A stretch of DNA of 37,840 bases. It comes from a virus. Shown here in pieces: positions 25,250 to 37,840 of this stretch (position 1 is its first letter; every line of letters begins with the position of its first letter). A program made the position numbers and the translations under genes. The notes beneath the pieces were generated by a model. It did not search any database and was not told where the DNA came from. It saw nothing but the letters and a program-made list of their open reading frames with translations. The stretch is taken from IMG/VR virus record IMGVR_UViG_3300009182_000151, positions 1 through 37,840 of that record. The stretch is one strand, 5' to 3'.

Positions 25250-25260
25250 AATTTTTTATA

Positions 25261-25590
25261 TTAAATGTTTTTCCACCTAAAAAAGTCATATGTTTCTCTA
25301 AAATCAGGTGTGATTCCCTCCAACTCTAAATGTTGTTCCACCCAGTCTTTTATAAGTTGTTTAGTTTCATCATAATCTAACGAAAACATATTTGATATAT
25401 TACGCCAAATTGAGAATGGAACTCTCATCTCACCTGATTTTTCCAATTCTAACATCACCTCATCATCTTTTTTCCAAAATTTAGAGTGCTTATATTTTGC
25501 CGATTCAACTTCATACATATCCCCAAATAAGTAATCCAAATACTTAAACTCTAATTTCCTCATTTGATTCTCTGTTATTAAAATCTTCAT
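25261..25590 (-). CDS. ITENQ family paralogue 1 (109 aa)
   Basis: This is one of four tandem homologues. It begins MKILITENQMRKLEFKYLDYLF, with an I-T-E7 site like that at the start of T4 Alt, followed by DMYEVES, FWKKDDEVMLELEKSG and a helical SIWRNISNMFSLDYDETKQLIKDWVEQHLELEGI box. The tail (TPDFRETYDFFRWKNI) is unique. The function is unknown. The strong conservation suggests selection for several variants. Confidence 0.8.
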   Translation of the reverse strand: MKILITENQMRKLEFKYLDYLFGDMYEVESAKYKHSKFWKKDDEVMLELEKSGEMRVPFSIWRNISNMFSLDYDETKQLIKDWVEQHLELEGITPDFRETYDFFRWKNI

Positions 25591-25658
25591 AATTTTTATA
25601 TTAAACGTTGTTCCACCTATAAACGTAAAGTTAAATTGGTATTAAGGGTATAATTCCC
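25585..25658. repeat. 74-base direct repeat, copy A
   Basis: These 74 bases are identical to 25928-26001. The unit runs from the last codons of one ITENQ gene through the spacer to the first codons of the next one. The spacer contains aacgttgttccacc, which is close to the coding sequence for V-E-Q-R/H-L at the C-terminus of these genes, so it seems to keep a remnant of an older gene end. Confidence 0.9.
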
Positions 25659-25933
25659 TCCAATTCTAAATGTTGTTCCACCCATTCCTTTATAAGTTGT
25701 TGTACTTCATAAGAATCCAATGAAAACATATTTTTAATATCTTTCCAAATTCTATTTGAAACATACAACCTACCTGATTTTTCCAATTCTAACAATATCT
25801 CCTTATTATCTTTTATAAAATATCTTACATCAGGATATTTTTTTGATTCCACTTCATACATATCCTCAAATAAGTAATCCAAATACTTAAACTCCAATCT
25901 TCTCATTTGATTTTCTGTTATTAAAAACTTCAT
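25631..25933 (-). CDS. ITENQ family paralogue 2 (100 aa)
   Basis: The protein has the same fold as its neighbours, beginning MKFLITENQMRRLEFKYLDYLF, but the middle is more divergent (VRYFIKDNKEILLELEKSGRLYV). It ends WVEQHLELEGIIPLIPI, an ending shared with paralogue 3 through the 74-base repeat. The gene is complete, with an intact start and stop. Confidence 0.8.
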   Translation of the reverse strand: MKFLITENQMRRLEFKYLDYLFEDMYEVESKKYPDVRYFIKDNKEILLELEKSGRLYVSNRIWKDIKNMFSLDSYEVQQLIKEWVEQHLELEGIIPLIPI

Positions 25934-26001
25934 AATTTTTATATTAAACGTTGTTCCACCTATAAACGTAAAGTTAAATTGGTATTAAGGGTATAATTCC
26001 C
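25928..26001. repeat. 74-base direct repeat, copy B
   Basis: This is an exact copy of 25585-25658, 343 bases away. It shows a recent duplication or gene conversion in the ITENQ array, because the coding parts between the two copies have diverged much more. Confidence 0.9.
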
Positions 26002-26339
26002 ACCAACCCTAAACGTTGTTCCATCAAAGTCATGCCAGTCTTGATTAAGCTGTTGGGTGTGACCCCCACCAACCCTAAACGTTGTTCCATCCAGTCTTTT
26101 ATAAGTTGTTGAGTTTCATAATAATTTAATGAAAACATATTGGAAATATCACTCCAAATTGAACGTAAAACCCACAAATCACCTGATTTTTCCAATTCTA
26201 ACATCACCTCATCATCTTTTTTCCAAAATTTAGAGTGCTTATATTTTGCCGATTCAACTTCATATATGTCATCAAATAAGTAATTCAAATACTTAAACTC
26301 CAATCTTCTCATTTGATTTTCTGTTATAATGTATTTCAT
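25974..26339 (-). CDS. ITENQ family paralogue 3 with duplicated tail (121 aa)
   Basis: It begins MKYIITENQMRRLEFKYLNYLF and is very similar to paralogue 1 in its middle (YKHSKFWKKDDEVMLELEKSG). The C-terminus repeats itself: WMEQRLGLVGVTP is followed by a junction segment (NSLIKTGMT) and then LMEQRLGLVGIIPLIPI. The DNA shows a 25-base exact repeat at 26001-26025 and 26067-26091. The extra tail is therefore the scar of a recombination between two gene ends. Confidence 0.8.
   Translation of the reverse strand: MKYIITENQMRRLEFKYLNYLFDDIYEVESAKYKHSKFWKKDDEVMLELEKSGDLWVLRSIWSDISNMFSLNYYETQQLIKDWMEQRLGLVGVTPNSLIKTGMTLMEQRLGLVGIIPLIPI
26001..26025. repeat. 25-base repeat in paralogue 3 tail, copy 1
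   Basis: The 25 bases starting CACCAACCCTAAACG recur exactly at 26067-26091. Both copies encode the EQRLGLVG segment on the minus strand, giving the doubled tail. Confidence 0.85.
26067..26091. repeat. 25-base repeat in paralogue 3 tail, copy 2
   Basis: This is an exact match to 26001-26025, 66 bases away. It marks the original end of the conserved WMEQRLGLVG segment, before the added tail. Confidence 0.85.
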
Positions 26340-26343
26340 AATT

Positions 26344-26673
26344 TTAAATGTTGTTCCACCACCAGGATAATTTGGGTTCGGCAGGCGGTGGTGTGATTCC
26401 CCCCAATTCTAAATGTTGTTCCACCCATTCCTTTATAAGTTGTTGAGTTTCGCGATTTTCCAAAGAAAACATATTGGAAATATCATTCCAAATTGAATGT
26501 AAAACCCATAATCTGTCTAATTTTACCAATTCTAATACAACCTTATCACCTTTCTTCCAAAATCTAGAATTAGGATAATGTTTTGACTTAACTTCATACA
26601 TATCCCCAAATAAGTAATCCAAATACTTAAACTCCAATCTTCTCATTTGATTTTCTGTTATTAAAAACTTCAT
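26344..26673 (-). CDS. ITENQ family paralogue 4 (109 aa), first in the array
   Basis: It begins MKFLITENQMRRLEFKYLDYLF and is the promoter-proximal member. The middle has YPNSRFWKKGDKVVLELVKLDRLWV and the end has WVEQHLELGGITPPPAEPKLSWWWNN. Upstream on the minus strand is TATATTTATATG, a partial match to the candidate late motif. Only 4 bases separate it from paralogue 3. Confidence 0.8.
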   Translation of the reverse strand: MKFLITENQMRRLEFKYLDYLFGDMYEVKSKHYPNSRFWKKGDKVVLELVKLDRLWVLHSIWNDISNMFSLENRETQQLIKEWVEQHLELGGITPPPAEPKLSWWWNNI

Positions 26674-26691
26674 AACATATAAATATAAAAA

Positions 26692-26714
26692 AAGGAGCGT
26701 TTTTCGCGCTCCTT
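26692..26714 (-). terminator. Terminator on the minus strand
   Basis: Read on the minus strand, AAGGAGCG / CGCTCCTT (8 bp) forms a stem with a 7-base loop and is followed by TTTTTTTATA. It lies 21 bases after the stop of the small Cys/Pro-rich gene and separates it from the ITENQ array. Confidence 0.85.
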
Positions 26715-26735
26715 CACCACATAAGTTTTTAAGTA

Positions 26736-26894
26736 TTATTTTTGTGTTTTGTTAACGTTATAATACTTCTCAATTGTTTTTTTAATTGAAGATTTTACGT
26801 CCTCACTAATCACCCTATCCTGTTTAGGTGCAGGATTTGGTTGAGGGGGTGGAGGAGGTGGTGGATTTTGATTGCCTTTGCAGCCACAAGCCAT
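26736..26894 (-). CDS. Small Cys/Pro-rich protein (52 aa)
   Basis: The ORF begins MACGCKGNQNPPPPPPPQPNP, with two Cys in a C-G-C pair and a poly-Pro stretch. It continues with a helical segment (RVISEDVKSSIKKTIEKYYNVNK). Small proteins with this Cys-rich, Pro-rich start and helical end occur in phages, but no function is known to me. It lies between the homing endonuclease and a good terminator, so it is a short separate unit. Confidence 0.7.
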   Translation of the reverse strand: MACGCKGNQNPPPPPPPQPNPAPKQDRVISEDVKSSIKKTIEKYYNVNKTQK

Positions 26895-26911
26895 AGTTTT
26901 AAATTTTAATT

Positions 26912-27502
26912 TTAGTTTATTATTTTGAATTTATGTTTGTAACAAGTTTTACGAATACATTTACTTTTTCCACCACAATTGACTTCTTTACCTCTTAAAC
27001 TACTTGATAATTTCATTCTAATATTCCTTAAACTTGCTTTAGTAAATCCATTATCATATAAATAGTTTGCAGCCTCAAATAAAGTTTCAAATATATATTC
27101 TCTTTCAGTTTCTATATTTATTAATGCAAATTTTTCAAAATTATTATTTTTCTTTAAATTATATTTTGAAAGTTGAATCTTGGTTTTGTCTGTTAATACA
27201 TTTCTTCTACTATTACTAACAAGACATAAATTATATCCAAATTTCATATCGTTAGTTTTATTTTCTATAATATAATAATTTTCTTTTTCAACTAAATCTT
27301 TTTTATCGCACATTTCTATAATATCAAAAATAAAATTTTCTTTACCATCTCTATCATAAGAACTCTGAAGGAATTTATTATCGTGAATTTTTTTTTGTAA
27401 CATCCAAAAATGTTTTTCTTTTCTTTTTTTAATATTCACAGAACTTCCTATGTATATTTTATTATTTTTGGTGTTAGTTATTTTATATATTCCGCATCCC
27501 AT
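26912..27502 (-). CDS. GIY-YIG homing endonuclease
   Basis: The GIY-YIG core is clear: G4-I-Y6, Y17-I-G19, the catalytic R27 in KKRKEKH, and a Glu in VEKENYYI (E72/E74), close to the R27/E75 of I-TevI. The C-terminus (IETEREYIFETLFEAANYL, then TKASLRNIRMKLSSSLRGK) resembles the modular DNA-binding repeats of phage homing enzymes, and a Cys-rich tail follows. It is very AT-rich and free-standing, with no visible intron. It is a mobile gene that copies itself into sites lacking it. Confidence 0.88.
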   Translation of the reverse strand: MGCGIYKITNTKNNKIYIGSSVNIKKRKEKHFWMLQKKIHDNKFLQSSYDRDGKENFIFDIIEMCDKKDLVEKENYYIIENKTNDMKFGYNLCLVSNSRRNVLTDKTKIQLSKYNLKKNNNFEKFALINIETEREYIFETLFEAANYLYDNGFTKASLRNIRMKLSSSLRGKEVNCGGKSKCIRKTCYKHKFKIIN

Positions 27503-27516
27503 AATAATAAATATAG

Positions 27517-27524
27517 TACATTTG
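27517..27524 (+). promoter_or_regulatory. Possible -7 box TACATTTG
   Basis: TACATTTG fits TAnnTTTG and lies 41 bases before the ATG at 27566, in the divergent spacer with the homing endonuclease. No -33 TTTG is found at the right distance. Confidence 0.4.
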
Positions 27525-27565
27525 CAATTATATCAGGATAAAACTATTTATTAAATAAAAAGAAT

Positions 27566-29338
27566 ATGAAATTTTCTAAAATTTTAATTGAAGGTAGAGT
27601 TGATGACTTTAAAACCAAATATACACAGAAGTATGGGGCACAGAATGTAGAGAGAATTGTTAATATGGTAACACCCAAGTATTTGGAGTGGGTTGGTAGA
27701 AACTTTGATGCAGTTAATTTTGATGAGAATTACGGAAAATTGGTTGCGGCATTAAATAATTTTGATAAAATCTCACATAACTTACCACAAACAGATATTA
27801 ACCAGTATAAGAGTTTAGAACAACTTACAAGTGCAATAGAACAATATAATAACACAACAAGAAGAGAAGTTGAGAAACACGAAGGTGGTAATGTTGTTTT
27901 TAATGATAATAGATTTTATGTGGTTAACCCATTAACTCACGAAGCGTCCTGTTATTATGGTAGAGGAACAAAGTGGTGTACGTCAGCAACAGGAGACGAA
28001 CATTTTAGAAGATATAATACAGAAGGTAAGTTATTTTATATTATAGATAAGACAAAACAGAGTTCAGACCCATTTTATAAAATCGCCATCCTCAGAAATT
28101 TTGATGGGTCGGAGAGTTTTTGGGATGCAAAAGATGATTCCATACCACAAATATGGGGAATAATAGGGAAAGACGAATTTGATAAAGTTAGTGAAAGTAT
28201 CAATCAATATTTGGAACAAGAGTTTGCTGAACAATTAAAAATATTCAGAGATAAGGAATTGGCAAAAAAAGAAAGAGAAAGGTTAGCAAGAATAGAATCC
28301 CAAAGAATATTAGACAGAAAAACCGCAGAGGCGAATGAAAGAAGATTAGATGGTGAGTGGGAACTGGGTCCTGATTGTCCTGATTTGGGATTAAAGGCAC
28401 ACGCTTTATTAGATTGGTTGGTTGATACAAGTGATGTTAGTGCTTTGACTAATGAAGATAGAATTGAAATACAAAGATTGAAAGATGAAATTGAAAGATT
28501 AAATGCCGAGTATGATGCCGGAGAAGACGCAGATACAGATTTATTAGATGAAATAAGTGATTTGGAAGATGAATTAACAGAATTGGAAGAAAAGATAGAT
28601 GTATATAACATTATTCCTGTTGGTGGACACTATGATTTACAAAGTTTTGAAGTTATAAATAGTGCAGATTTAGATGGTAGAGAATATGCGGTTGGAGATG
28701 AAGATGAAATAAAAAGTAGTTGTTATGATTATGTTGAGAGTCTTATAGATGATATTGGTTACGAAGGATTCTCTAAAGGATTTGCAGAGGATTATATTAG
28801 TCAAGAACAAGTTAAGGACTTTGCATATGACTTTTATTATGATGATGTTAGAAACAGTCCTGAAAGTTATTTTGATGAAAACCAAAGAGAATTATCAAGA
28901 GAACAAGAAGATAGAATTTTACAATACAATACAAGAAAAGAGAGAATTGGAATTATGATAAGTTCTCTTGAAGGTAGAATGTCTGATATGGAAGATGAGG
29001 ATGAAATTAGCGAGTTAGAAGACAAGGTTAGTGAATTAAATGATGAATTAGATGAGATAGATACTGAAATTGAAGATATTGAAAATGACCCAGAGGGTGA
29101 ATATCCTGATGATTTAATAGAAGATAAAGCGGAAGAATTGGCAAAAGATGCGGCATACGACCCGATGGATTGGTTAAGAGAAATGGGTTTAGATATAGAT
29201 AATTTTATTGATAAACGTGAGTTTATTGAAGGAGTTATTGACGCTGATGGTTACGGACACACATTAAGTAGTTATGATGGAAATGCTGATGAAGTTACAG
29301 TTGAAGGAACAACATATTGGATTATCAGGTTAAATTAA
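27566..29338 (+). CDS. WCTS-domain protein with capsid-targeting-like N-terminus and acidic coiled coils
   Basis: It begins MKFSKILIEGRVDDF, with an L-I-E9/G site of the (I/L)xE type. A helical region is followed by the shared domain: CYYGRGTKW137-C-T-S140, FRRYNTEGKLFYIID, YKIAILRNFDGSESFWDAKDD. The rest (residues 225-590) consists of two long Glu/Asp-rich coiled-coil stretches (about 285-350 and 440-520) separated by a Tyr/Asp-rich globular part. The domain is the same as in the 18388-19743 protein, but here LRRs are replaced by coiled coils. Function is unknown. The layout suggests a conserved N-terminal packaging and core domain with different effector ends. Confidence 0.82.
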   Translation: MKFSKILIEGRVDDFKTKYTQKYGAQNVERIVNMVTPKYLEWVGRNFDAVNFDENYGKLVAALNNFDKISHNLPQTDINQYKSLEQLTSAIEQYNNTTRREVEKHEGGNVVFNDNRFYVVNPLTHEASCYYGRGTKWCTSATGDEHFRRYNTEGKLFYIIDKTKQSSDPFYKIAILRNFDGSESFWDAKDDSIPQIWGIIGKDEFDKVSESINQYLEQEFAEQLKIFRDKELAKKERERLARIESQRILDRKTAEANERRLDGEWELGPDCPDLGLKAHALLDWLVDTSDVSALTNEDRIEIQRLKDEIERLNAEYDAGEDADTDLLDEISDLEDELTELEEKIDVYNIIPVGGHYDLQSFEVINSADLDGREYAVGDEDEIKSSCYDYVESLIDDIGYEGFSKGFAEDYISQEQVKDFAYDFYYDDVRNSPESYFDENQRELSREQEDRILQYNTRKERIGIMISSLEGRMSDMEDEDEISELEDKVSELNDELDEIDTEIEDIENDPEGEYPDDLIEDKAEELAKDAAYDPMDWLREMGLDIDNFIDKREFIEGVIDADGYGHTLSSYDGNADEVTVEGTTYWIIRLN

Positions 29339-29374
29339 TATTCACCATCATAGAAATATGTATTATATTTTGTT

Positions 29375-30124
29375 ATGGCAAGGAAAAAGAAAATATCATT
29401 TAAGCTCAATCCAGAATGGATGTTCAAAGAACCAATAGATTTTGAATATAACAAATATACTCTGTTAGATTACCTTAAAAAATGCGGAACAAACTTTGAT
29501 AGTTTCAGGATTTATCCTGATTTTGTTGAATTATCACTTCATATTGCAAATACGCAGTCCCTTATTAGAGAGAATATACTTTTATTAACAGACAAGAAGT
29601 TTGAGGCTTGTGATGATGAAATCCTCCTCAAAGAGTTGTACCCCAAAAAACCAAGAGACATAAGTGATGAAGAGAAACCAGAGTTAGAAAAAACTTTAAG
29701 GTATTCAAACACAAAATTATTTGATGCATTTAATATTGCTAAATCAATATGGACTGTCGCCTATGATAATGTTATACTCTCATTAAAAAAGAATAAAGAT
29801 AATGCGGTTGTTGGTTCAGGGTTTGTTGTTTTATTTAATAAGTTTGAGAATAAGATTATTGTTTGGGAATACCAAATGAAAAAACCAAAGAAGGGAGAAT
29901 TAAATTATAAGCCACAACTTAAAAAGATATACGAGGGAGATGAAAATGAAGAAACCCTCACCTCAATTATTGAAACAAAATCAACTTGGAAAGAAGTTGA
30001 ATTCCTTAAAAGATTACCGGTGTTTGAAGTTAAATTAACACAGGAACTTCCGTTGGAGGAGACAATCATCCCCATTCTTAAAAGAAAACTCCTTACATAC
30101 GTTTTTAGTACCGCAAAAGTTTGA
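29375..30124 (+). CDS. Hypothetical phage protein (249 aa)
   Basis: A basic start (MARKKKISFKLNPEWMF) is followed by alpha/beta sequence (DSFRIYPDFVELSLHI and SGFVVLFNKFENKIIVWEYQMKKPKKGE). The C-terminus has KLTQELPLEETIIPILKRKL. It looks like a conserved protein of large phages but I cannot assign a function. The ATG follows TATATTTTG, a near miss of the host -7 box. Confidence 0.72.
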   Translation: MARKKKISFKLNPEWMFKEPIDFEYNKYTLLDYLKKCGTNFDSFRIYPDFVELSLHIANTQSLIRENILLLTDKKFEACDDEILLKELYPKKPRDISDEEKPELEKTLRYSNTKLFDAFNIAKSIWTVAYDNVILSLKKNKDNAVVGSGFVVLFNKFENKIIVWEYQMKKPKKGELNYKPQLKKIYEGDENEETLTSIIETKSTWKEVEFLKRLPVFEVKLTQELPLEETIIPILKRKLLTYVFSTAKV

Positions 30125-30154
30125 CTATAATTTTTATTTTTCCTAAATTTTGGT

Positions 30155-30367
30155 ATGGGATTTAATAAAGTAATTGTAGATGAAAAAATACTAATGAAGT
30201 ATTTTGAAAAGAATAAACCTTTGAAGATGTTATTCAAAGCGGAGGCATTTATCTTTATGGATAAGATAAGCTCGGAGGCGTATGATTTATATACAAAAGG
30301 AATGTCTGATGAAGAAATAAAATTAACAATTAAAAACATACAAAATGAAGTGTCTAAAAGCAATTAA
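30155..30367 (+). CDS. Small hypothetical protein (70 aa)
   Basis: This helical protein begins MGFNKVIVDEKILMKYFEKNKPLKMLFKAEAF. A SDEEIKLTIKNI segment is at the C-terminus. It overlaps the next ORF by 23 bases. No function is recognised. Confidence 0.62.
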   Translation: MGFNKVIVDEKILMKYFEKNKPLKMLFKAEAFIFMDKISSEAYDLYTKGMSDEEIKLTIKNIQNEVSKSN

Positions 30368-30575
30368 GCCAACAAAGAATGTTGAGGTGGGTAAAGTCAT
30401 TAGAATTGACGATAAAGAAGCCGATTTGAAAGTAAAGGACGGGTATTGGAAATATGTATCCAAAACTGAATGGAAAAAATCAAAAGGTATTGAAAAATCT
30501 ACAGAAGAAGTATCTGAACCACAAGAAACAAAAGTAGAGAATAAGAAATCTAAAAAGAATGCAAAAAATAATTAA
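30345..30575 (+). CDS. Small hypothetical protein with SH3-like start (76 aa)
   Basis: The first 45 residues (MKCLKAIKPTKNVEVGKVIRI, DDKEADLKVKDGYWKYVSKTEWK) look like a small beta barrel. The remaining 30 residues are Lys/Glu-rich and disordered. A similar small protein recurs in large phages, but no function is known to me. It overlaps both neighbours, in a run of tiny overlapping genes. Confidence 0.65.
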   Translation: MKCLKAIKPTKNVEVGKVIRIDDKEADLKVKDGYWKYVSKTEWKKSKGIEKSTEEVSEPQETKVENKKSKKNAKNN

Positions 30576-30687
30576 AAAATTAGACTGGATTTGGGATTAT
30601 TATTTTGTATATTTTTTATACAACGGAAACAAGTTGGATAGATATTACGAGTATATGAATAAAAAATGGAATAAAAATGGAAAATAA
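30559..30687 (+). CDS. Tiny aromatic protein (42 aa)
   Basis: The ORF begins MQKIIKKLDWIWDYYFVYFLYNG and is rich in Tyr, Trp and Phe. It overlaps the previous gene by 17 bases and the next by 11, filling a gap that otherwise has no coding sequence on this strand. No family is recognised. The aromatic patch could be membrane-associated. Confidence 0.5.
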   Translation: MQKIIKKLDWIWDYYFVYFLYNGNKLDRYYEYMNKKWNKNGK

Positions 30688-30901
30688 AGAAATGGTTAAT
30701 CACCCGAATCATTATGGGGGAGCCGACAACGCATATGAAGCGATTAAGATTATTGAAGCCCTTGAATTGGACTTCCACACAGGGAACGCACTCAAGTATC
30801 TTGTAAGGGCGGGAAAAAAAGACCCCGAAAAAGAACTTGAAGATTTAAAGAAAGCCGCTTGGTATCTCTACCGAAAAATAAAAAATATAGAAACTACGTA
30901 A
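30677..30901 (+). CDS. DUF3310 protein
   Basis: The family signature is almost complete: NHPNHYGG, YEAIKIIEAL, FHTGNALKYLVRAGKKDPEKELEDLKKAAWYLYRKI. DUF3310 proteins are common in phages and often annotated as nucleotide kinase-like without proof. The full-length domain is present (74 aa). The stop overlaps the start of the methyltransferase gene by one base (TAATG), so the two are translationally coupled. Confidence 0.9.
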   Translation: MENKEMVNHPNHYGGADNAYEAIKIIEALELDFHTGNALKYLVRAGKKDPEKELEDLKKAAWYLYRKIKNIETT

Positions 30902-31755
30902 TGATAGAGACAAACAAAATAATAAATGGTAACTGTATTGATGTGATGAAAAATATGCCCGAAGGATGTATTGATTTAGTTGTCACGTCGCCTCCCTATG
31001 GTGTTGGAATCAAATATGACGTTCACGATGATGATATGGAATTCACCGAGTATCAGGAGTTCAGTAAAGACTGGCTCACACAAGCATACAGGATTCTTAA
31101 AGATGATGGTAGAATTGCTGTTAACATTCCGTATGAAATTAACAGACAGGCGAAGGGTGGAAGAATCTTTATGGTTGCTGAAGTGTGGAAGATAATGCAA
31201 GAAATTGGTTTTGGTTTTTTTGGTATAATTGATTTAGAAGAAGATAGTCCCCACAGAAGTAAAACCACGGCTTGGGGTTCTTGGATGAGTCCGTCCAGCC
31301 CTTATGTGTATAACCCAAAAGAATGTGTTATTCTTGCTTACAAGAAACAACATATTAAGAAAGTTAAGGGCGTCCCGCAGTGGGTCGGTGTTCCTACGGA
31401 TATTGAAATGGAAGATGGAACAACCAAGAAAAAGATTGTTTATCAAGATGATGATAAAAAAGATTTTATGGAACTTGTATTCGGGCAGTGGAAGTATCTT
31501 AACGACAGTCGTCCTATGACGAAGGCAACATTTTCTATGGATATTCCAACCAAAGCAATTAAGATTCTTACTTATAAAGATGATATTGTCCTTGACCCGT
31601 TCTGTGGTAGTGGTACAAGTTGTGTTGCGGCAGAAATATTAGATAGACGATGGTTGGGGATAGAATTAAGTGAAAACTATGCAAAAGTTGCAAGAGACAG
31701 GGTTCAGTTATTCATAGAGAAGAAAAAACAATTAGAAATAGAAGGGTTAGTTTAA
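30901..31755 (+). CDS. DNA methyltransferase, TSPPY class (orphan)
   Basis: This is an amino-methyltransferase with T-S-P-P-Y (about residues 29-33) followed by GVGIKYD, and DPFCGSGTS near the C-terminus. I use the ATG at 30901, which overlaps the DUF3310 stop and begins MIETNKIINGNCIDVM, rather than an in-frame upstream codon. It has no endonuclease partner nearby, so it is probably a solitary modification enzyme against host restriction. A terminator lies at its end. Confidence 0.9.
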   Translation: MIETNKIINGNCIDVMKNMPEGCIDLVVTSPPYGVGIKYDVHDDDMEFTEYQEFSKDWLTQAYRILKDDGRIAVNIPYEINRQAKGGRIFMVAEVWKIMQEIGFGFFGIIDLEEDSPHRSKTTAWGSWMSPSSPYVYNPKECVILAYKKQHIKKVKGVPQWVGVPTDIEMEDGTTKKKIVYQDDDKKDFMELVFGQWKYLNDSRPMTKATFSMDIPTKAIKILTYKDDIVLDPFCGSGTSCVAAEILDRRWLGIELSENYAKVARDRVQLFIEKKKQLEIEGLV

Positions 31756-31764
31756 CCCTTTTTT
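31742..31764 (+). terminator. Terminator containing the methyltransferase stop codon
   Basis: The 8-bp stem AAGGGTTA / TAACCCTT with a GTT loop spans the TAA stop at 31753-31755 and is followed by TTTT. Termination is thus coupled tightly to the end of the coding sequence. Confidence 0.8.
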
Positions 31765-31774
31765 CTTTTCTTTA

Positions 31775-31789
31775 ATATTTATAAGAAAA
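31775..31789 (+). promoter_or_regulatory. Candidate late motif, one mismatch (ATATTTATAAGAAAA)
   Basis: This motif differs by one base from the 15-mer at 12494, 18363 and 32774. It lies 7 bases before the ATG at 31797, directly after a terminator, so the 31797 gene needs a promoter here. Confidence 0.5.
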
Positions 31790-31796
31790 TGTTTTA

Positions 31797-32768
31797 ATGG
31801 CAACAATTCTAATAACAGAAAAACAATATTTGAATTTAGTAGATTTTGAAAAAGATATTATAAAGGAGGACTTTATTGAAAACGCACTTATGGTTGCGGG
31901 ATTTGTTCCTGTGATTGGTGAAGTGGCAGATATTATATTGATATTGAGATATTTGTGGAAAGGAGAATATTTGTACGCAGGTTTAATGTTAATTGCTTTG
32001 ATTCCTACTGTTGGTGATATCATCGCAAAACCAATAATAAGATTATTAAAAGGTGCTGGAATTGCAGGGAGAGGGGCGATGACTTCAACTAAAGCTTTGG
32101 CAAAATATTGTGCAGAACATCCTGATTTTGCTGCGAGATATGCAAAAATAGGAGGACATTTGACAGACCCACTAATTACTAAAACAATTAATGGTATTGA
32201 GAGAATACCAGGGATAGGTGAGAAAGCCGCTAATGGATTGAGAAAATCTATATCGGGACATCTTTCAGTTGTAAACAAATTAAAACCTATACAAGCGGCT
32301 AAGGCGGTTGGTAGAGAAGTTGCTGCTGGTGGTAAACTTAGTACAGGTCTTAAAAATTTCTTTAGGGATGAAAAGTTAGCTCAATATATTGCTAAAAAAG
32401 GTCAAGCACCAAGTAATTGGTTATCTAATTGGTGGAATGTTGTGATGCCGGCAAGAAGAGGACGTAGAAATATGGTAAAAAACTTTGTATTATCAAATAA
32501 ATTATTAGATAAATTTGGTTTACCAAGTTTTGAAGCATTTGAAGATAAATTCAAAGAAGATGAAAATTTTAGAAAAGAATTGGCCAACGACCCGCAATTC
32601 TCACAAGTTGTTAATCAAACAACATCTCAAGATGATTTAAATCAAATTGAAGGAACCGGAACTGAATCAGACCAAACTGTAAGTGCTGGAACAACTCAAA
32701 CATCAACACCGTCAATAGACCCATTCCAAGGATTGGTTAAAGGTTTATTATCTGGACAATTAGCTTAA
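31797..32768 (+). CDS. Hydrophobic-core virion-like protein with ITE start
   Basis: The start MATILITEKQYLN carries an I-T-E8 site. Residues about 30-90 form a Gly/Pro-rich hydrophobic hairpin (VAGFVPVIGEVADIILIL, then YLYAGLMLIALIPTVGDII) that resembles the pre-toxin hydrophobic region of polymorphic toxins and some phage internal proteins. A basic helical middle follows (TGLKNFF, RRGRRNMVKNF), then a Ser/Thr/Gln-rich tail. No toxin active site is seen. A packaged membrane-active or ejection protein is one hypothesis. The gene stands alone between a terminator and a DUF5856-like gene. Confidence 0.78.
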   Translation: MATILITEKQYLNLVDFEKDIIKEDFIENALMVAGFVPVIGEVADIILILRYLWKGEYLYAGLMLIALIPTVGDIIAKPIIRLLKGAGIAGRGAMTSTKALAKYCAEHPDFAARYAKIGGHLTDPLITKTINGIERIPGIGEKAANGLRKSISGHLSVVNKLKPIQAAKAVGREVAAGGKLSTGLKNFFRDEKLAQYIAKKGQAPSNWLSNWWNVVMPARRGRRNMVKNFVLSNKLLDKFGLPSFEAFEDKFKEDENFRKELANDPQFSQVVNQTTSQDDLNQIEGTGTESDQTVSAGTTQTSTPSIDPFQGLVKGLLSGQLA

Positions 32769-32773
32769 TTGAT

Positions 32774-32788
32774 ATATTTATAATAAAA
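32774..32788 (+). promoter_or_regulatory. Candidate late motif ATATTTATAATAAAA
   Basis: This is an exact copy, 5 bases before the ATG at 32794. The flanking bases (gat before, taatt after) are also close to those at 18363. Confidence 0.5.
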
Positions 32789-32793
32789 TAATT

Positions 32794-33165
32794 ATGAAAG
32801 AAGAATTAACATTAAAACTCATTCAGATACAAACTCAATTTAAGTTTTTGCATTGGCAAACATTTGGAGATGCTAAACATAAAGCATATGGTGAAATATA
32901 TGATTTGTTAGGGGATAATATTGATACATTTGTTGAAGTTATGATGGGAAAACAAGGAAGAGTTGAGTTTGACCCAGAGTTCTCAATTATGTTTCAAGAT
33001 ATCAAAAATTTAAGTGTTCAAAACTTTTTGGATGGTATAACAGAATTTTTGGTAGGAATGACGGAGCAGTTAGATAAAAAATATGATACTGATTTGTTAA
33101 ACATTAGAGATGAAATGTTGGGAGACATTAATCAATTAAAATACAGATTAACTTTAAAATACTAA
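32794..33165 (+). CDS. DUF5856-like ferritin-fold protein
   Basis: This helical protein contains QFKFLHWQTFGDAKHKAYGEIYDLLGDNIDTFVEVMMG, the pattern of Dps-like four-helix proteins grouped in DUF5856 (FHWQT...HK..gelYd...D.FvE). The ligand-like His and Asp residues of the Dps ferroxidase are partly kept (H20, H29, D42 region). Phage members have no proven role. It could bind DNA or metal, or be a virion protein. It is preceded by the late motif. Confidence 0.78.
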   Translation: MKEELTLKLIQIQTQFKFLHWQTFGDAKHKAYGEIYDLLGDNIDTFVEVMMGKQGRVEFDPEFSIMFQDIKNLSVQNFLDGITEFLVGMTEQLDKKYDTDLLNIRDEMLGDINQLKYRLTLKY

Positions 33166-33170
33166 TATAA

Positions 33171-33518
33171 TTAAAAAATATATTCAACAGAATCTCCAGG
33201 TTTAATACCCAACCTTTCACAAGTACCACCACCCAATTCAAGAACAATATTTCCTTTACCAACATAAGAGTCACAGTCCTCCGTTTCACACGGGGGACAT
33301 TTGTGATGAATTTTAGTTATCTTATTATTTTTAATCATTATAATATCTAAATCTATCACACAATTCTTCATCCAAAAAGATTGAGACTGACCACCCATTA
33401 AAAATAGAAGTCCGTCAAAACCATTATCAAATTTCTTTCCCATCATACCTTTAGCTTGAGAAAATTTATCTGTAAGAGTTTTGACTTTGAAGATATTTTT
33501 GTTAACTTTAACTTTCAT
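33171..33518 (-). CDS. DUF192 family protein
   Basis: The family pattern is visible: GMMGKK (24-29), GLLFLM, FWMKNC (48-53), then a VIDLDIIMI strand, C-x-x-C (74/77), a Cys and Tyr (DCDSYVG), VLELGGG and IKPGDSV. DUF192 proteins occur in bacteria and some phages. Structures are known but the function is unclear. There is no signal peptide, unlike many bacterial members. Its start codon lies 13 bases from that of the divergent Nudix gene. Confidence 0.88.
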   Translation of the reverse strand: MKVKVNKNIFKVKTLTDKFSQAKGMMGKKFDNGFDGLLFLMGGQSQSFWMKNCVIDLDIIMIKNNKITKIHHKCPPCETEDCDSYVGKGNIVLELGGGTCERLGIKPGDSVEYIF

Positions 33519-33531
33519 AATATATAAATAT

Positions 33532-33954
33532 ATGGATACTAAAACATACGTAGGTGTCGTAGTTAAATGTAAAGATAAAGTTCTTCTTTGTAAAAGAAAT
33601 GCTCAAGGTTCATTTCCTGGAATGTGGTCCATTCCCGCAGGGAAGGTTGAAGATGGTGAAGAAACGATGGATGCGGCAAAAAGAGAATTCTTTGAAGAAA
33701 CGGCAATTGATATTGATAACAAGGAGTTAACATTTGTCGGTTTAATTCCAAGACATACAAGAGATGGAAAGAAGATTAAAGGAATGATGTATGTGTATCA
33801 ATATGATGTTGAAGATGAAATTTACCCTGATTTGGATAACGCAATTGATGGTTCTGAACACACGGAATGTGGATATTTTACTACAAATCAAGTGTCGCAA
33901 GAGAACTCGGGAGAGTATTTACATAAACTAATTCAAATTATTTTAAAAAAATAG
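33532..33954 (+). CDS. Nudix hydrolase
   Basis: The Nudix box is present: G37-x5-E43-x7-R51-E52-x2-E55-E56-T-A58 (the last Gly replaced by Ala), after FPGMWSIPAG. I take the ATG at 33532 because it follows the divergent start region and gives the normal N-terminus (MDTKTYVGVVVKC). The substrate is not predictable; Nudix enzymes remove nucleoside diphosphates from various compounds, and the phage enzyme may clean up nucleotides or decap RNA. It is followed by a promoter for the next gene. Confidence 0.9.
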   Translation: MDTKTYVGVVVKCKDKVLLCKRNAQGSFPGMWSIPAGKVEDGEETMDAAKREFFEETAIDIDNKELTFVGLIPRHTRDGKKIKGMMYVYQYDVEDEIYPDLDNAIDGSEHTECGYFTTNQVSQENSGEYLHKLIQIILKK

Positions 33955-33985
33955 TTGACAGTTTAAAATAAAAATTATATCTTTA
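33954..33985 (+). promoter_or_regulatory. Bacteroidota-type promoter GTTG-N20-TATCTTTA
   Basis: GTTG (33954-33957, also the start of TTGACA), exactly 20 bases, then TATCTTTA (33978-33985), one base off TAnnTTTG. It lies 22 bases before the ATG at 34008 and probably drives the exported barrel protein. Confidence 0.65.
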
Positions 33986-34007
33986 TAAAAATTTAAAAAA
34001 AACAATT

Positions 34008-34517
34008 ATGAAAAAAGTATTAGTTATTTTAGGAGTTATTGCTTCTATCAACACTTTCGGTCAGACACCGGCAGTAAAAACAACAACAACATCTAAGTTC
34101 AATTACAGGGTGGGTATTGCAACAGGACTTCCAGTAGATGTTAATGTTGAGGAAAGTAGATTAAAGACATCATCTACAATGGGTGAGGTGTCTTACAAAA
34201 ACACAAAGTTATCTAAAAAAATCACATTAACCGCAAATGCAGGTTACTTAAGATTTACGTCAACAGACGGTACGGGATATGCAAAAATTCCTGTTATGGT
34301 TGGTGTTAGATATCCAATTAATGAGACTTTTTACTTCGGAGCAAGTGCAGGTCCATCTTTTTACAATAAAAAAGAAAATGGTACTACTGAATTAGTGTAT
34401 TCACCATATGTCGGACTTCAAGTTAAAAAAATCTCTTGTGATTTCAGATATTTGAATTTCACACGTAAAGACTACGTTCAAAAGACAATTGGTTTGGTTT
34501 TTGGATACACCCTGTAA
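34008..34517 (+). CDS. Exported putative outer-membrane beta-barrel protein (169 aa)
   Basis: A signal peptide (MKKVLVILGVIASINTFGQ) is followed by alternating strands (ITLTANAGYLRFTSTDG, KIPVMVGVRYPIN, FYFGASAGPSFY, SPYVGLQVKK, TIGLVFGYTL) typical of small Bacteroidota outer-membrane barrels. The last residues form an aromatic-hydrophobic strand, as expected for barrel insertion. An outer-membrane protein in a phage could block other phages or change surface properties. The barrel call is from pattern only. It has its own promoter and terminator. Confidence 0.72.
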   Translation: MKKVLVILGVIASINTFGQTPAVKTTTTSKFNYRVGIATGLPVDVNVEESRLKTSSTMGEVSYKNTKLSKKITLTANAGYLRFTSTDGTGYAKIPVMVGVRYPINETFYFGASAGPSFYNKKENGTTELVYSPYVGLQVKKISCDFRYLNFTRKDYVQKTIGLVFGYTL

Positions 34518-34540
34518 TAAAGAAAAAAACGAAATCTAAA

Positions 34541-34571
34541 GGCGACAAACATTAAGTTTGTCGTTTTTTTT
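34541..34571 (+). terminator. Rho-independent terminator
   Basis: The stem CGACAAAC / GTTTGTCG (8 bp, ATTAA loop), with flanking GG, is followed by eight T. It ends the message of the 34008-34517 gene. Confidence 0.88.
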
Positions 34572-34582
34572 GCTTATATGAG

Positions 34583-34597
34583 ATATTTATCAGTAAA
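34583..34597 (+). promoter_or_regulatory. Partial late motif (ATATTTATCAGTAAA)
   Basis: The first eight bases match the candidate motif and the rest match partly. It lies 4 bases before the ATG at 34602, which supports that start over the in-frame ATG at 34578. It follows a terminator, so a promoter is needed here. Confidence 0.4.
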
Positions 34598-34601
34598 AGT
34601 T

Positions 34602-35090
34602 ATGAAAAAAACGTTATTATTATTTTTACTATTGACCGCGACAATAGTTTCATTCGCACAATTTAAATTACCATCAAACAGAAGTAGCGCGGGAGTTGAG
34701 ATATTTGTACCAACAGGTAATTTATCTAAAACACATTTTCTTGGTTTGAGCGCAAATCTTCAAATGGAGATGAGAAATCCAAAAAATCCTGCGGGAATCT
34801 TGTTATTTTCAGGATATAATTATTGTCTCCCAAAATCAGGTTCAAAATCTTTTATTATGTTTCCTGCACTTGTTGGTGTTAAATATCATTTGACTAATTT
34901 AATTTCAACAGGAAGTATGATGGGAGTTAGTTTTGTTAATAGAGGTGGAGGAATTAGGTATACCTACTCTATGTCTATGGGATTTGAAAATGAAGATTGG
35001 TCAACAGACATAAAATTCGGAGGTTCTACATTTCCCGGGCATGAAAATGACTATTCGGGATTTAGTGTAAGATTTGCTTACCGACTATAA
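34602..35090 (+). CDS. Second exported putative outer-membrane barrel protein (162 aa)
   Basis: I start at the ATG at 34602 because it gives a clean signal peptide (MKKTLLLFLLLTATIVSFAQ); the open frame begins 24 bases earlier and would overlap the promoter-like motif. The mature part has repeating strands with Gly and aromatic residues (ILLFSGYNYCLPK, FPALVGVKYHLTN, TGSMMGVSFVNRG, GFSVRFAYRL). It is not clearly homologous to the 34008-34517 protein but has a similar size and layout. Two such genes in a row suggest a surface-modifying cassette. Confidence 0.68.
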   Translation: MKKTLLLFLLLTATIVSFAQFKLPSNRSSAGVEIFVPTGNLSKTHFLGLSANLQMEMRNPKNPAGILLFSGYNYCLPKSGSKSFIMFPALVGVKYHLTNLISTGSMMGVSFVNRGGGIRYTYSMSMGFENEDWSTDIKFGGSTFPGHENDYSGFSVRFAYRL

Positions 35091-35099
35091 AAAGAAATT

Positions 35100-35123
35100 A
35101 AACTCCGCTAACCGGGGTTTTTT
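35100..35123 (+). terminator. Rho-independent terminator
   Basis: The stem AACTCCG / CGGGGTT (one T-G pair) with a CTAAC loop is followed by TTTTT. It lies 10 bases after the stop at 35090 and before the T9SS gene. Confidence 0.8.
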
Positions 35124-35136
35124 ATTTATAATAAAT
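35122..35136 (+). promoter_or_regulatory. Late motif with two mismatches (TTATTTATAATAAAT)
   Basis: The core ATTTATAATAAA matches the 15-mer elsewhere. It overlaps the end of the terminator T tract and lies 18 bases before the ATG at 35155, farther than at the other sites. Confidence 0.4.
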
Positions 35137-35154
35137 TAAAACAAAAAAACCAAA

Positions 35155-37146
35155 ATGAAAAAAATCACATTATTACTTTCGTTATTGTTTATGACGGTGT
35201 TATTCACGTCATTAAAAATAACAAGTAATCCAAATTGCCCAACAGGGTATTCAACGGCTCCATCACTAAATGGTACAACTGTAAGGAATTGTACAAGTTG
35301 TCACGGAGATTATTCATTAAACACGGCTGGTGGAGGAATTACGGTAACAGGATTACCAACAACATTTACTCCAGGTACTGCATATCCTTTTAGTGTAAAG
35401 GTAACTCATTCAGCTGCGAACAGAACAGTATGGGGTGTTGCAATTAAAGCGGTGGATACATTAACTCATGCAGTTATTGGAACTTGGACTACAACAAATC
35501 CAAACACATCAATTAAAGGAACTCCAACAATTGCAAATGGTAATTATGAGTTGAGTCATGCAAATGCCGCAACATCAACCGCTACTAACACTTACACTTA
35601 TTCTAATTTAACTTGGACAGCACCGGCGTTACCAACTGCGGTACAATCAAGAGTTAAGTTTTATGTTTCTGCGGTTGCTGGTAACAGTAGTGGTGATGAA
35701 GCTGGTGATTATGTTTACTCAACATCATTAACTTCAAATCAGTATGTTGCTCCAACTCCTTGTACATTTACTTACGGACAATGGACAACTTGTTCTAATG
35801 GTACACAAACAAGAAGTTACACAACAAGTCCGGCAGGATGTACAGGAACTCCACCCGCAGATTCAATTCAAAGAACTTGTTCAGTTCCTTGTACTTTCAC
35901 ATATGGTGCTTGGACAACTTGTTCTAATGGAACACAAACAAGAAGTTATACAACATCACCAGCAGGTTGTACAGGTACACCTCCAACAGATAGTATAACA
36001 AGAACTTGTACGGTAGTTCCGCCCACATCATTACCAACACCTGTAACAATCACAGGAACAATAAATCCTGGCGTTTGTGATACTATAAGAACATTTACTG
36101 TTCAAAACCAAAGTAATGTATTTTATGCTTGGGTAATTAGTGGTGTTGGAAATTACATTACTAATGGACAGGGAACAAATGTATTGACTGCGGTTGTTAA
36201 AGCGGGAGGAAGTGTTACAGTATCATTAAGTAATACTGCAGGTTCAATCCCGTCAACAAGTTTGGCGTTCACTAAAGCAGTTCCACCAACTCCAACGGCT
36301 ATGAATGGTAGTTTGGCACCTTGCCCTAACAGTACATTTACTTATTCATTAACAAATCCTTTACCAAGTGCAACACAAGTTGCTCCAAATGTATTTAGAT
36401 GGACAACACCAGCATTTACTACAATAACTTCAGCAAATGCTGATAGTTCACAAATTACATTAAATTTTGGTGGTAGTTATGTTGGTGGTACATTATCGGC
36501 TAAAGGTGTTACAAACTGTGGTGCTGTAGGTAGTGCTAAATCAATAGTTTTAGCGCCAACAAAGGCGGTGGATGTAGTTTCAAGTACAGGATTTTGGAAT
36601 GGTTGTATTGGTAATTCAGTAAATTATTTTGTAGTTTCACCAGTTACTTCAATCTCACCTGTTTCAGGATATAGATGGACAACACCAGCATTTACAAGTA
36701 TAACTTCAGCAAACGCTGATAGTTCACAAATCACATTACAATTTAACACAGGTTATAAGGGTGGTTCACTTAAAGTCCAAAGCTCAACAAGTTGTGGTTC
36801 TCTTGGAACTGCGGTTTCAAAAACTTTAACACATATTGGATGCGCAGCGGGACAGAGAAATGGTATTGAAGAAGAAACTCTTGTAACTGATTTAGTAAGT
36901 TTATTTCCTAATCCAAATAATGGTGAATTTACAATTAATATTCAAACAGGAGATAAAATAACTCAAAAGGCTTTAATTCAAATAATTAATTTACAAGGAA
37001 ATCTTTTAGACCAATATACTGTTGGTGTTAATGGTGGTGTTATTAGTAAAAAAATAACAAACACTTCATTAAAAACTGGTATGTATTTTATTACTTATAT
37101 TATTGGTGATAAGAAGAAAACAATTAAGATGTATGTAACTCAATAA
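35155..37146 (+). CDS. Large secreted surface protein with T9SS type A sorting domain
   Basis: A signal peptide (residues 1-20) is followed by NCTSCHGD (C46, C49, H50; CxxCH haem-type motif) and a domain like the choice-of-anchor V/Reeler type (GGGITVTGLP...PGTAYPFSVKVTH). Two 43-residue repeats starting at about 203 and 246 contain WTTCSNGTQTRSYTTSPAGC. Two Ig-like repeats 92 residues apart follow (RWTTPAFT.ITSANADSSQITL). The last 85 residues (SLFPNPNNGEFTINI ... TGMYFITYII) form a T9SS sorting domain. This is a typical Bacteroidota host-type protein and very unusual in a phage. It would be secreted and attached to the host surface by host type IX secretion. Confidence 0.85.
   Translation: MKKITLLLSLLFMTVLFTSLKITSNPNCPTGYSTAPSLNGTTVRNCTSCHGDYSLNTAGGGITVTGLPTTFTPGTAYPFSVKVTHSAANRTVWGVAIKAVDTLTHAVIGTWTTTNPNTSIKGTPTIANGNYELSHANAATSTATNTYTYSNLTWTAPALPTAVQSRVKFYVSAVAGNSSGDEAGDYVYSTSLTSNQYVAPTPCTFTYGQWTTCSNGTQTRSYTTSPAGCTGTPPADSIQRTCSVPCTFTYGAWTTCSNGTQTRSYTTSPAGCTGTPPTDSITRTCTVVPPTSLPTPVTITGTINPGVCDTIRTFTVQNQSNVFYAWVISGVGNYITNGQGTNVLTAVVKAGGSVTVSLSNTAGSIPSTSLAFTKAVPPTPTAMNGSLAPCPNSTFTYSLTNPLPSATQVAPNVFRWTTPAFTTITSANADSSQITLNFGGSYVGGTLSAKGVTNCGAVGSAKSIVLAPTKAVDVVSSTGFWNGCIGNSVNYFVVSPVTSISPVSGYRWTTPAFTSITSANADSSQITLQFNTGYKGGSLKVQSSTSCGSLGTAVSKTLTHIGCAAGQRNGIEEETLVTDLVSLFPNPNNGEFTINIQTGDKITQKALIQIINLQGNLLDQYTVGVNGGVISKKITNTSLKTGMYFITYIIGDKKKTIKMYVTQ
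35761..36012 (+). repeat. Two in-frame 129-base repeats (thrombospondin-like units)
   Basis: The units start at about 35761 and 35890 and encode 43 residues each with CTFTYG.WTTCSNGTQTRSYTTSPAGCTGTPP. The DNA has drifted between copies while the protein is nearly identical. Confidence 0.85.
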
Positions 37147-37167
37147 TAACTTCTTATATAGTAAAAA

Positions 37168-37198
37168 ACCGGTATATGAAAATATATCGGTTTTTTTT
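37168..37198 (+). terminator. Rho-independent terminator with GAAA tetraloop
   Basis: The stem ACCGGTATAT / ATATATCGGT (10 bp with one G-T pair) around a GAAA loop is followed by eight T. It closes the message of the T9SS gene, 21 bases after its stop. Confidence 0.9.
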
Positions 37199-37230
37199 AT
37201 TGACTTTTTTTAAAAAAATATGTATGTTTG
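37199..37230 (+). promoter_or_regulatory. Bacteroidota-type promoter ATTG-N20-TATGTTTG
   Basis: ATTG (37199-37202), exactly 20 bases, then TATGTTTG (37223-37230). There is no ORF downstream, so it should make a non-coding RNA starting near 37236. Confidence 0.75.
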
Positions 37231-37300
37231 TAGTCCTTTGGGAAATATGAAGATATTTATATTTCCTGGTCCTCACGGACAAACACCCCAAAACCCCAAA
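37231..37300 (+). ncRNA. Candidate small structured RNA 1
   Basis: Downstream of the promoter at 37199-37230 there is no ORF but there are two perfect hairpins: GGAAATAT / ATATTTCC (37241-37248 with 37259-37266) and GTCC-TCAC-GGAC (37269-37280). GTCC at 37233-37236 could instead pair with GGAC at 37277-37280 to enclose the first hairpin. A C-rich single-stranded tail (ACACCCCAAAACCCC) follows. No known RNA family is recognised. Confidence 0.5.
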
Positions 37301-37303
37301 ATA

Positions 37304-37360
37304 AGTTTCAAAAAGATTTGATTAATTGAAAAGTTCTTCTTAACTTTGTGAAACAAATGA
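37304..37360 (+). promoter_or_regulatory. RNA-gene promoter repeat, copy 1
   Basis: This unit of about 57 bases recurs at 37529-37580 and 37671-37727. It contains TTTG (37317-37320), exactly 20 bases, then TAACTTTG (37341-37348). The shared part also includes AGTTTCA at the left end and GTGAAAC at the right end, which can pair. It precedes the hairpin and tRNA at 37375-37520. Confidence 0.82.
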
Positions 37361-37374
37361 GATGAGAGTCTCAC

Positions 37375-37419
37375 AAACCCCACAAGTAGTTTGAGAAAAT
37401 TATAATAAATGTGGGGTTT
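37375..37419 (+). ncRNA. Ten-base-pair hairpin before the tRNA
   Basis: AAACCCCACA (37375-37384) pairs perfectly with TGTGGGGTTT (37410-37419) around a 25-base AT-rich loop. It lies between promoter copy 1 and the tRNA, in the expected 5' part of the precursor. It could be a processing signal, an attenuator or a separate small RNA. Confidence 0.55.
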
Positions 37420-37448
37420 ATTTTGAAAGTTCTTTAAATAAATTATAC

Positions 37449-37520
37449 AGTGGCGTAGAGCAGTGGTAGCTCACTAGGCTCATAACCTAGGGGTCATTGG
37501 TTCGAATCCAATCGCCGCAA
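37449..37520 (+). tRNA. tRNA with CAT anticodon (Met, or Ile after lysidine modification)
   Basis: The cloverleaf folds as acceptor AGTGGCG / CGCCGCA, D arm GAGC-AGTGGTA-GCTC, anticodon arm CTAGG-CTCATAA-CCTAG with anticodon CAT, variable loop GGGTC, and T arm ATTGG-TTCGAAT-CCAAT. The discriminator is A, and CCA is not encoded. The first pair is A-A, a mismatch, and the third is T-G. A mismatch at 1-72 is a mark of initiator tRNAs, but the anticodon stem lacks the three G-C pairs of initiators. Elongator Met or Ile2 are also possible. Confidence 0.9.
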
Positions 37521-37528
37521 CAAAAAAA

Positions 37529-37580
37529 AGTTTTAAAAAAGATTTGATAGAATGAAAACTTCTTCTTAACTTTGTGAAAC
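37529..37580 (+). promoter_or_regulatory. RNA-gene promoter repeat, copy 2
   Basis: TTTG (37543-37546), exactly 20 bases, then TAACTTTG (37567-37574). The spacer is more divergent than between copies 1 and 3, but both boxes and the GTGAAAC end are kept. It starts 9 bases after the tRNA. Confidence 0.82.
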
Positions 37581-37670
37581 ATTTCGGGGTAATTCTTCAG
37601 ATTCCCTAAAAAGAATTGATTGGAAGAGCGGTATGGTGATGTCGCTACTGGTGAATCAAACCGAAAAAAA
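37581..37670 (+). ncRNA. Candidate small structured RNA 2
   Basis: Between promoter copies 2 and 3 there is no plus-strand ORF. The segment has a perfect 7-bp hairpin AATTCTT / AAGAATT (37591-37597 with 37611-37617) and a second possible stem AGCG / CGCT (37627-37630 with 37643-37646). I tested it as a tRNA and could not fold a convincing cloverleaf. Confidence 0.45.
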
Positions 37671-37727
37671 AGTTTCAAAAAGATTTGATTAATTAAAAAG
37701 TTCTTCTTAACTTTGTGAAACAAATGA
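37671..37727 (+). promoter_or_regulatory. RNA-gene promoter repeat, copy 3
   Basis: TTTG (37684-37687), exactly 20 bases, then TAACTTTG (37708-37715). It is nearly identical to copy 1 over 57 bases (for example AATTAAAAAG instead of AATTGAAAAG), including the CAAATGA after the box. Confidence 0.82.
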
Positions 37728-37736
37728 AGAAGATGG

Positions 37737-37752
37737 GGTTGTAAAGATTCCA
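37737..37752 (+). repeat. 16-base direct repeat, copy 1
   Basis: GGTTGTAAAGATTCCA occurs here and at 37825-37840, the last base of the window, so the second copy may be longer than can be seen. Confidence 0.8.
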
Positions 37753-37824
37753 TTATTCTTTCCCTACCGAAAGGAGTTCAAAAATTAGAACAAAAATCGG
37801 TGATTACAAGTGGGGGGAATGAGT

Positions 37825-37840
37825 GGTTGTAAAGATTCCA
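37825..37840 (+). repeat. 16-base direct repeat, copy 2
   Basis: This is an exact copy of 37737-37752, 88 bases apart, at the window edge. It may be part of a longer duplicated RNA unit beyond this window. Confidence 0.75.

Follow-up and report, generated by a model that had tools for sequence, protein, structure and literature searches.

Phages that change the envelope of their host are well known in Enterobacteria, and the type IX secretion system (T9SS), an export route specific to the Bacteroidota, has hardly been considered as a tool that a phage could use. The locus described here raises this question. Positions 35155–37146 of the plus strand of an IMG/VR record of 37,840 nucleotides (the whole stretch that was analysed, hereafter the window) contain a gene for a protein with a T9SS tag, and an earlier note, made from the sequence alone, had suggested that a phage sends this protein (hereafter the cargo) to the surface of its host. 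Does the gene really belong to a phage, would its product be displayed by the host, and what would the phage gain from it? The answer that we favour, which on balance seems probable, combines a resident phage gene, passage of its product through Sec and the T9SS to the cell surface, and remodelling of that surface, with exclusion of other phages as a putative function.

The tagged protein and the phages that encode it

The gene starts with ATG and its product has 663 residues. Residues 1–23 (35155–35223) form a hydrophobic helix, recognised by eye as a signal peptide that has no lipobox and is kept across all homologues. The choice-of-anchor V domain (NF041895) matches residues 15–192 (35197–35730); it was missed when the whole protein was scanned and appeared once the N-terminal part was scanned alone (66.4 bits with the first 200 residues, against a cut-off of 42 in NCBIfam), and the orthologues score 64–70 bits against the same cut-off. 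Inside this domain lie a CxxCH motif (residues 46–50; 35290–35304) and a distal histidine, H135 (35557–35559), which is kept in all aligned relatives, both phage and chromosomal; C46, C49, H50 and H135 are present in every aligned sequence and invariant among the phage copies. Two Cys-rich repeats seen in the sequence (residues 203–242 and 246–285; 35761–36009) are followed by three PKD_6 (Ig-like) domains at 36034–36810 (36034–36267, 36283–36537 and 36586–36810; Pfam, E 8e-16) and by a T9SS type A C-terminal sorting domain at 36901–37131 (PF18962/TIGR04183). This last domain exceeds the curated cut-offs both in Pfam (Por_Secre_tail, 34.8 bits, cut-off 27, residues 583–659 of 663) and in NCBIfam (TIGR04183, 31.1 bits, cut-off 23), and it does so in all five full-length phage homologues scanned, which come from six contigs. 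In scans with Pfam and NCBIfam the cargo showed neither an enzymatic nor a membrane-active domain.

The signal peptide, the CxxCH motif, the duplicated Cys-rich and Ig-like units and the type A sorting domain had all been listed in the earlier note and are confirmed here, the signal peptide being recognised by eye. The structure model of the whole cargo is weak (mean pLDDT of 58) and consists of an N-terminal helix, at the signal peptide, and then beta-strands throughout, including the sorting domain. A Foldseek search with this low-confidence model gave unspecific Ig-like matches only (TM below 0.2), which were discarded, and the comparison of the N-domain with solved structures gave zero matches.

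The residence of the gene in a phage, which had been assumed at the outset, is corroborated by an exact second assembly and by colinear cassettes in other contigs. The IMG/VR contig 3300028393_003819 (L001) is identical to positions 25155–37840 of the window (12,686 bases, 12.7 kb) and extends 7.6 kb beyond its end with further phage-like genes; because it is identical and continues past the window, the cargo gene is interior and does not lie at a contig end. Two contigs from one other metagenome, G006 (192,370 b) and G007 (138,365 b), are colinear with almost the entire window and carry the cargo in the same place, with 65 and 62% identity, respectively. The gene set of G006 includes a T4-type terminase, portal, major head protein, tail sheath and baseplate, and the nearest high-coverage isolate matches of the terminase include Flavobacterium phage immuto, next to a T4-like gp20. 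A full-length relative of the cargo (52–53% identity) is also found on a different backbone (L002, L003 and L004; the longest contig is G004, with 128,065 b), whose portal, terminase and head proteins match PHROG families other than those of G006 and which appears to be crAss-like. G004 has about ten genes in common with G006 and G007 together, and two of them are the cargo and a small outer-membrane protein. The Cys-rich repeat is present in more copies in G006 and G007 and in zero copies in the crAss-like relatives.

Neither INPHARED nor PLSDB gave a match to the cargo, and INPHARED gave none to its sorting domain or to the small outer-membrane protein. Taken together, the assemblies make it well supported that the cargo gene is resident in a T4-like lineage of Bacteroidota phages. 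In another part of the window, four tandem paralogous ORFs on the minus strand (25261–26673; 100–121 aa) start with MKxLITENQMRxLEFKYLxYLF; two such paralogues are in tandem in G007 and one is present in G006, elsewhere in the genome.

The upstream cassette and its promoter-like elements

The cargo gene is preceded by two genes for exported proteins. The first (34008–34517, +) encodes a protein of 169 aa with a signal peptide and a predicted 8-stranded beta-barrel of the OmpX/Ail/OmpA-like fold, the best solved matches of the model being Ail, OmpX and OmpA (Foldseek E 1e-6 to 1e-5, TM 0.5–0.6). It is 82–89% identical to the copies in the two T4-like relatives and 43% identical to that of the crAss-like phage. 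The second (34602–35090, +; listed as an ORF from 34578, with the signal-peptide start at 34602) also has a signal peptide and is a distant paralogue of the barrel. The order of outer-membrane protein, paralogue and cargo is common to the window, G006 and G007, and only in G007 is a YceI-domain protein inserted between the small barrels and the cargo. Judged by the predicted products, the cassette thus encodes three or four exported envelope proteins in a row. In the other lineage, the gene adjoining the T9SS cargo (L004 9014–9535) encodes a protein of 173 aa with a signal peptide, the remainder of which matches structural and tail families of phage virions, apparently an exported fibre-like domain.

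The cassette is also marked by signals in the DNA. A promoter-like element of the host-sigma type (TTGACA ... TATCTT; 33955–33983, +) precedes the small barrel gene, and AGTTGACA is found upstream of this gene in the window and of its orthologues in G006 and G007. Terminator-like hairpins lie 3' of the first cassette gene (34538–34568, +) and in the gap that separates the second exported gene from the cargo (35100–35120, +), and the hairpin search found six in all on both strands, with 2.1 expected. The description of the gene as flanked by terminators stands on its upstream side, where hairpins were found by search, while the hairpin after the cargo gene was seen by eye only. Consensus sigma-70 promoters were also considered for the cargo, and they were not used, their frequency in the region not being above that of the shuffles.

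The AT-rich motif that the cargo gene had been said to have in common with other phage genes proved to be TATTTATA, located at 35123–35130 (+), that is, 25–32 nt before the start of the gene. It occurs no more than 60 nt upstream of 7 of the 49 genes of the window (0.98 expected from dinucleotide shuffles) and is likewise enriched in G006 (33/176 genes, 3.4 expected); the counts in G007 and G004 are 12/126 (2.3 expected) and 3/112 (1.4 expected). The terminase and portal genes of G006 are among those preceded by it. Near the cargo itself the arrangement varies: in G006 the element stands before the upstream neighbour of the cargo, not directly before the cargo, and it is absent near the cargo in G007. 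The late promoter of T4 is TATAAATA, and on this analogy TATTTATA may be read as a late-type promoter of the T4-like lineage.

Two further observations concern transcription. The window encodes a sigma-70 family factor with regions 1.2, 2 and 4 (7706–8506, +), a candidate reader of TATTTATA. Between 37291 and 37727, TTTG-N20-TAACTTTG, the consensus of the primary promoter of Bacteroidota, occurs three times (37318, 37544 and 37685) around a tRNA-Met (37449–37521), and each copy is followed by a short non-coding stretch; these copies are perhaps the promoters of the tRNA and of small RNAs.

Origin of the cargo, the probable host and the possible benefit to the phage

Relatives of the N-domain exist on bacterial chromosomes. 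With a profile of this domain they were found in 35 genomes out of a phylum-wide sample of 395 (best E 8e-14) and in 18 of 296 genomes of the Chitinophagaceae (best E 7e-37), and by this measure the nearest chromosomal relatives of the cargo are in the Chitinophagaceae, far closer than those of the phylum-wide sample. A pattern scan of genome contigs with the alignment of the whole cargo found zero, although the profile searches of whole genomes did find relatives. The aligned Chitinophagaceae proteins have a signal peptide and an N-domain of about 40% identity, with a T9SS-like tail where they are complete. These choice-of-anchor V proteins are like the phage cargo in the signal peptide, the N-domain, the CxxCH motif, the distal histidine and the T9SS-like tail; most of them are only about 370–390 aa long, and the aligned ones match only the first 215 or so residues of the phage protein, which adds the Cys-rich and PKD repeats. 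The same Cys-rich repeat is present in surface proteins of Chitinophagaceae MAGs, on chromosomal contigs.

SprA, the T9SS translocon, was found in 7/7 Chitinophagaceae genomes tested, those that hold the nearest relatives, and it is absent from the four phage records. Since the nearest relatives, the Cys-rich repeat and SprA are all found in the Chitinophagaceae, the host is probably a member of this family, and since SprA is present in those genomes and absent from the phage records, the phage would have to use the T9SS of its host. The claim of delivery to the host surface is in this way strengthened by a phage-resident gene, a complete type A tag, phage records without SprA and SprA in the chromosomes of the relatives, and surface display of the cargo itself can be regarded as likely.

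The following mechanism is proposed. The cargo would be made during infection, probably at a late stage, from a promoter of the TATTTATA type that belongs to the phage, and Sec would carry it across the inner membrane; the type A domain at its C terminus would then hand it over to the host T9SS for export and anchoring on the cell surface. There it may remodel the outside of the infected cell jointly with the small outer-membrane barrels, one or two in number, whose genes directly precede its own. As a benefit, it is most likely that receptors would be masked or blocked, so that further phages are kept from adsorbing, and masking could also save the released progeny from being lost to debris and to cells already infected. 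That the main benefit lies in receptor masking or in the exclusion of superinfecting phages is put forward only tentatively; late expression would fit the masking of debris and receptors better than an early exclusion of superinfecting phages.

The main rival accepts display by the T9SS and gives the protein another role, either adhesion and aggregation or a redox, metal or haem function of the CxxCH domain, the gene being then an auxiliary host gene. This is rather unlikely, but it has something to recommend it: the conservation of C46, C49, H50 and H135 would agree with the binding of haem or a metal, repeats of the Ig-like and Cys-rich kinds are usual in adhesins, and the number of repeats differs among the phages. 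On the other hand, the spacing of the motif varies among the cellular relatives (CxxCH, CxxxCH and CxxxxCH), which makes haem attachment uncertain, and late expression would leave little time for a metabolic benefit.

It is improbable that the exported cargo helps lysis by weakening the outer membrane or the surface layer at the end of the infection. The crAss-like contigs do place the gene beside spanin-like, DUF1003-like and peptidoglycan-hydrolase-like genes, but in the lineage of the window the amidase and spanin-like genes (9755–11588) lie at a distance of 24 kb, and the scans showed neither an enzymatic nor a membrane-active domain in the cargo. As for these lysis genes, the overlapping pair at 10865–11588, which encodes small membrane or exported coiled-coil-like proteins, adjoins the amidase gene (9755–10366) and has relatives in a crAss-like contig, is probably a spanin pair.

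Whether the gene could instead be a captured host gene that drifts as a passenger and from which the phage gains nothing depends on how it has been maintained. Between the window and the two colinear contigs, identity falls from 82–84% in the N-domain to 62–66% in the PKD region and 42–45% in the sorting domain. In the same comparisons dN/dS is 0.28–0.34 for the cargo overall, 0.12–0.17 for the N-domain (0.10–0.17 within the whole T4-like trio) and 0.46–0.72 for the sorting domain, the fastest-changing part; in close pairs (G006/G007 and L002/L004), the sorting domain has values of 0.12–0.20. Only the divergence of the sorting domain between the window and these contigs speaks for a passenger. 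The ratios are well below 1 in every domain and the gene is intact in five distinct homologues on at least two phage backbones, which makes such a reading very improbable. Judged by these ratios, the cargo gene is under purifying selection with all its parts maintained, and the view that the T9SS type A tag is complete and selectively maintained is supported. The fast divergence of the tag could reflect adaptation to different hosts or relaxed constraint.

Ig-like domains are common on virions, and the cargo might accordingly be a fibre or decoration protein in which the signal peptide and the sorting domain are leftovers; this is highly improbable, considering that all homologues keep the signal peptide, that purifying selection acts on the sorting domain in close pairs and that in G006 a long distance separates the gene from those for structural proteins. 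Finally, an origin from host DNA, by chimeric assembly or by the wrong labelling of a piece of chromosome as virus, named beforehand as what would refute the phage reading, is scarcely credible: every domain of the cargo is typical of Bacteroidota surface proteins, but the identity with L001 past the end of the window, the large colinear phage contigs G006 and G007 and the further phage backbone answer this objection, and the genome searches (phylum-wide and in the Chitinophagaceae) and the alignment found no chromosomal copy with the full architecture.

Tagged proteins in other phages and comparison with known systems

Display of a protein by the host T9SS, the reading preferred here, may extend to other phages. 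A scan for the sorting domain, the check that had been suggested for other Bacteroidota phages, revealed a second cargo family, unrelated to the first (L052), in 19 IMG/VR loci, the largest contig reaching 310 kb; the neighbouring genes are the same each time, and the tag is above the cut-off in 8/8 records tested. A conserved six-gene envelope cassette surrounds the T9SS-tagged protein in L068 (2507–7900) and 18 related loci (L069–L086), and a cassette of the same kind is found in L088 (3692–7410). A cultured phage has a tagged protein as well: Flavobacterium phage immuto (host Flavobacterium sp. LMO8) encodes a cohesin-domain protein, immuto136C_15, with a sorting domain above the cut-off; its neighbours are homologous to those of the L052 family, and immuto has homologues of 5/6 cassette genes. 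In the widest reading, coating of the infected cell by way of the host T9SS would be a general strategy of Bacteroidota phages, with tagged surface proteins kept in conserved envelope cassettes by unrelated lineages (T4-like, crAss-like, the large contigs of the second cargo family and immuto); this is a real possibility, at a little under even chances.

Other proteins noticed in these contigs include immuto136C_17, which looks CsgG-like by eye and receives no call from Pfam, and two related long 'RKFYFSSSTGNDNYTS' exported proteins, beta-helix-like by eye (L005 8324–10387 and L004 6409–8823). The one in L005 ends with the same Cys-rich repeat as the cargo and a sub-threshold sorting domain.

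Conserved cassettes, a promoter-like motif that the cargo shares with other phage genes and the tagged protein of immuto together make the proposal testable in an existing phage–host pair. The answer would help to explain how phages compete on gliding bacteria that bear the T9SS, and it is the maintenance of the gene across lineages, its cassette and the availability of a cultured phage that take the locus beyond a curiosity.

Analogues of such an action are found among classical phages. Lom of lambda, to be compared along with the OmpX/Ail family, is a small barrel that the phage encodes and that alters the surface of the host from within the outer membrane; the barrel encoded at 34008 has the same fold. 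Lom is not paired with a T9SS protein, and the barrel at 34008 has no detectable membership of a sequence family. Llp of T5 is a periplasmic lipoprotein of lytic conversion that masks the receptor and protects the progeny, an analogue in its action, as a phage product in the host envelope, although it is not a T9SS cargo and has no homology to the one described here.

The earlier note had known of no established phage system of this kind, and this has to be corrected, given that T9SS-tagged phage proteins appear in two papers, in which the use of the T9SS by phages is noted without a test (Bellas et al., 2020, PMC7468147; de Jonge et al., 2019, PMC6949934); further reports of such proteins were not found in the literature searched, which left most subscription journals outside. 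Cryophage has three T9SS type A-tagged cargo genes, for which use of the host T9SS and, perhaps, superinfection exclusion were proposed (Bellas et al., 2020, PMC7468147). Its cargo is described as endoglucanase, GH39 and PA14 proteins located in variable islands of a 76-kb phage, whereas the window encodes a choice-of-anchor V/PKD protein that is not an enzyme, and does so within a cassette that is conserved in large T4-like phages. The proteins with T9SS sorting domains noted in crAss-like phages (de Jonge et al., 2019, PMC6949934) are also encoded in Bacteroidota phage genomes, near structural genes; they differ in being linked to BACON domains and, in the passages concerned, are described without a cassette or an origin of the cargo. 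What is new here, in comparison with both, is the conservation of the gene, its cassette, the origin of the cargo, the second cargo family in large contigs and the tagged protein in the cultured immuto.
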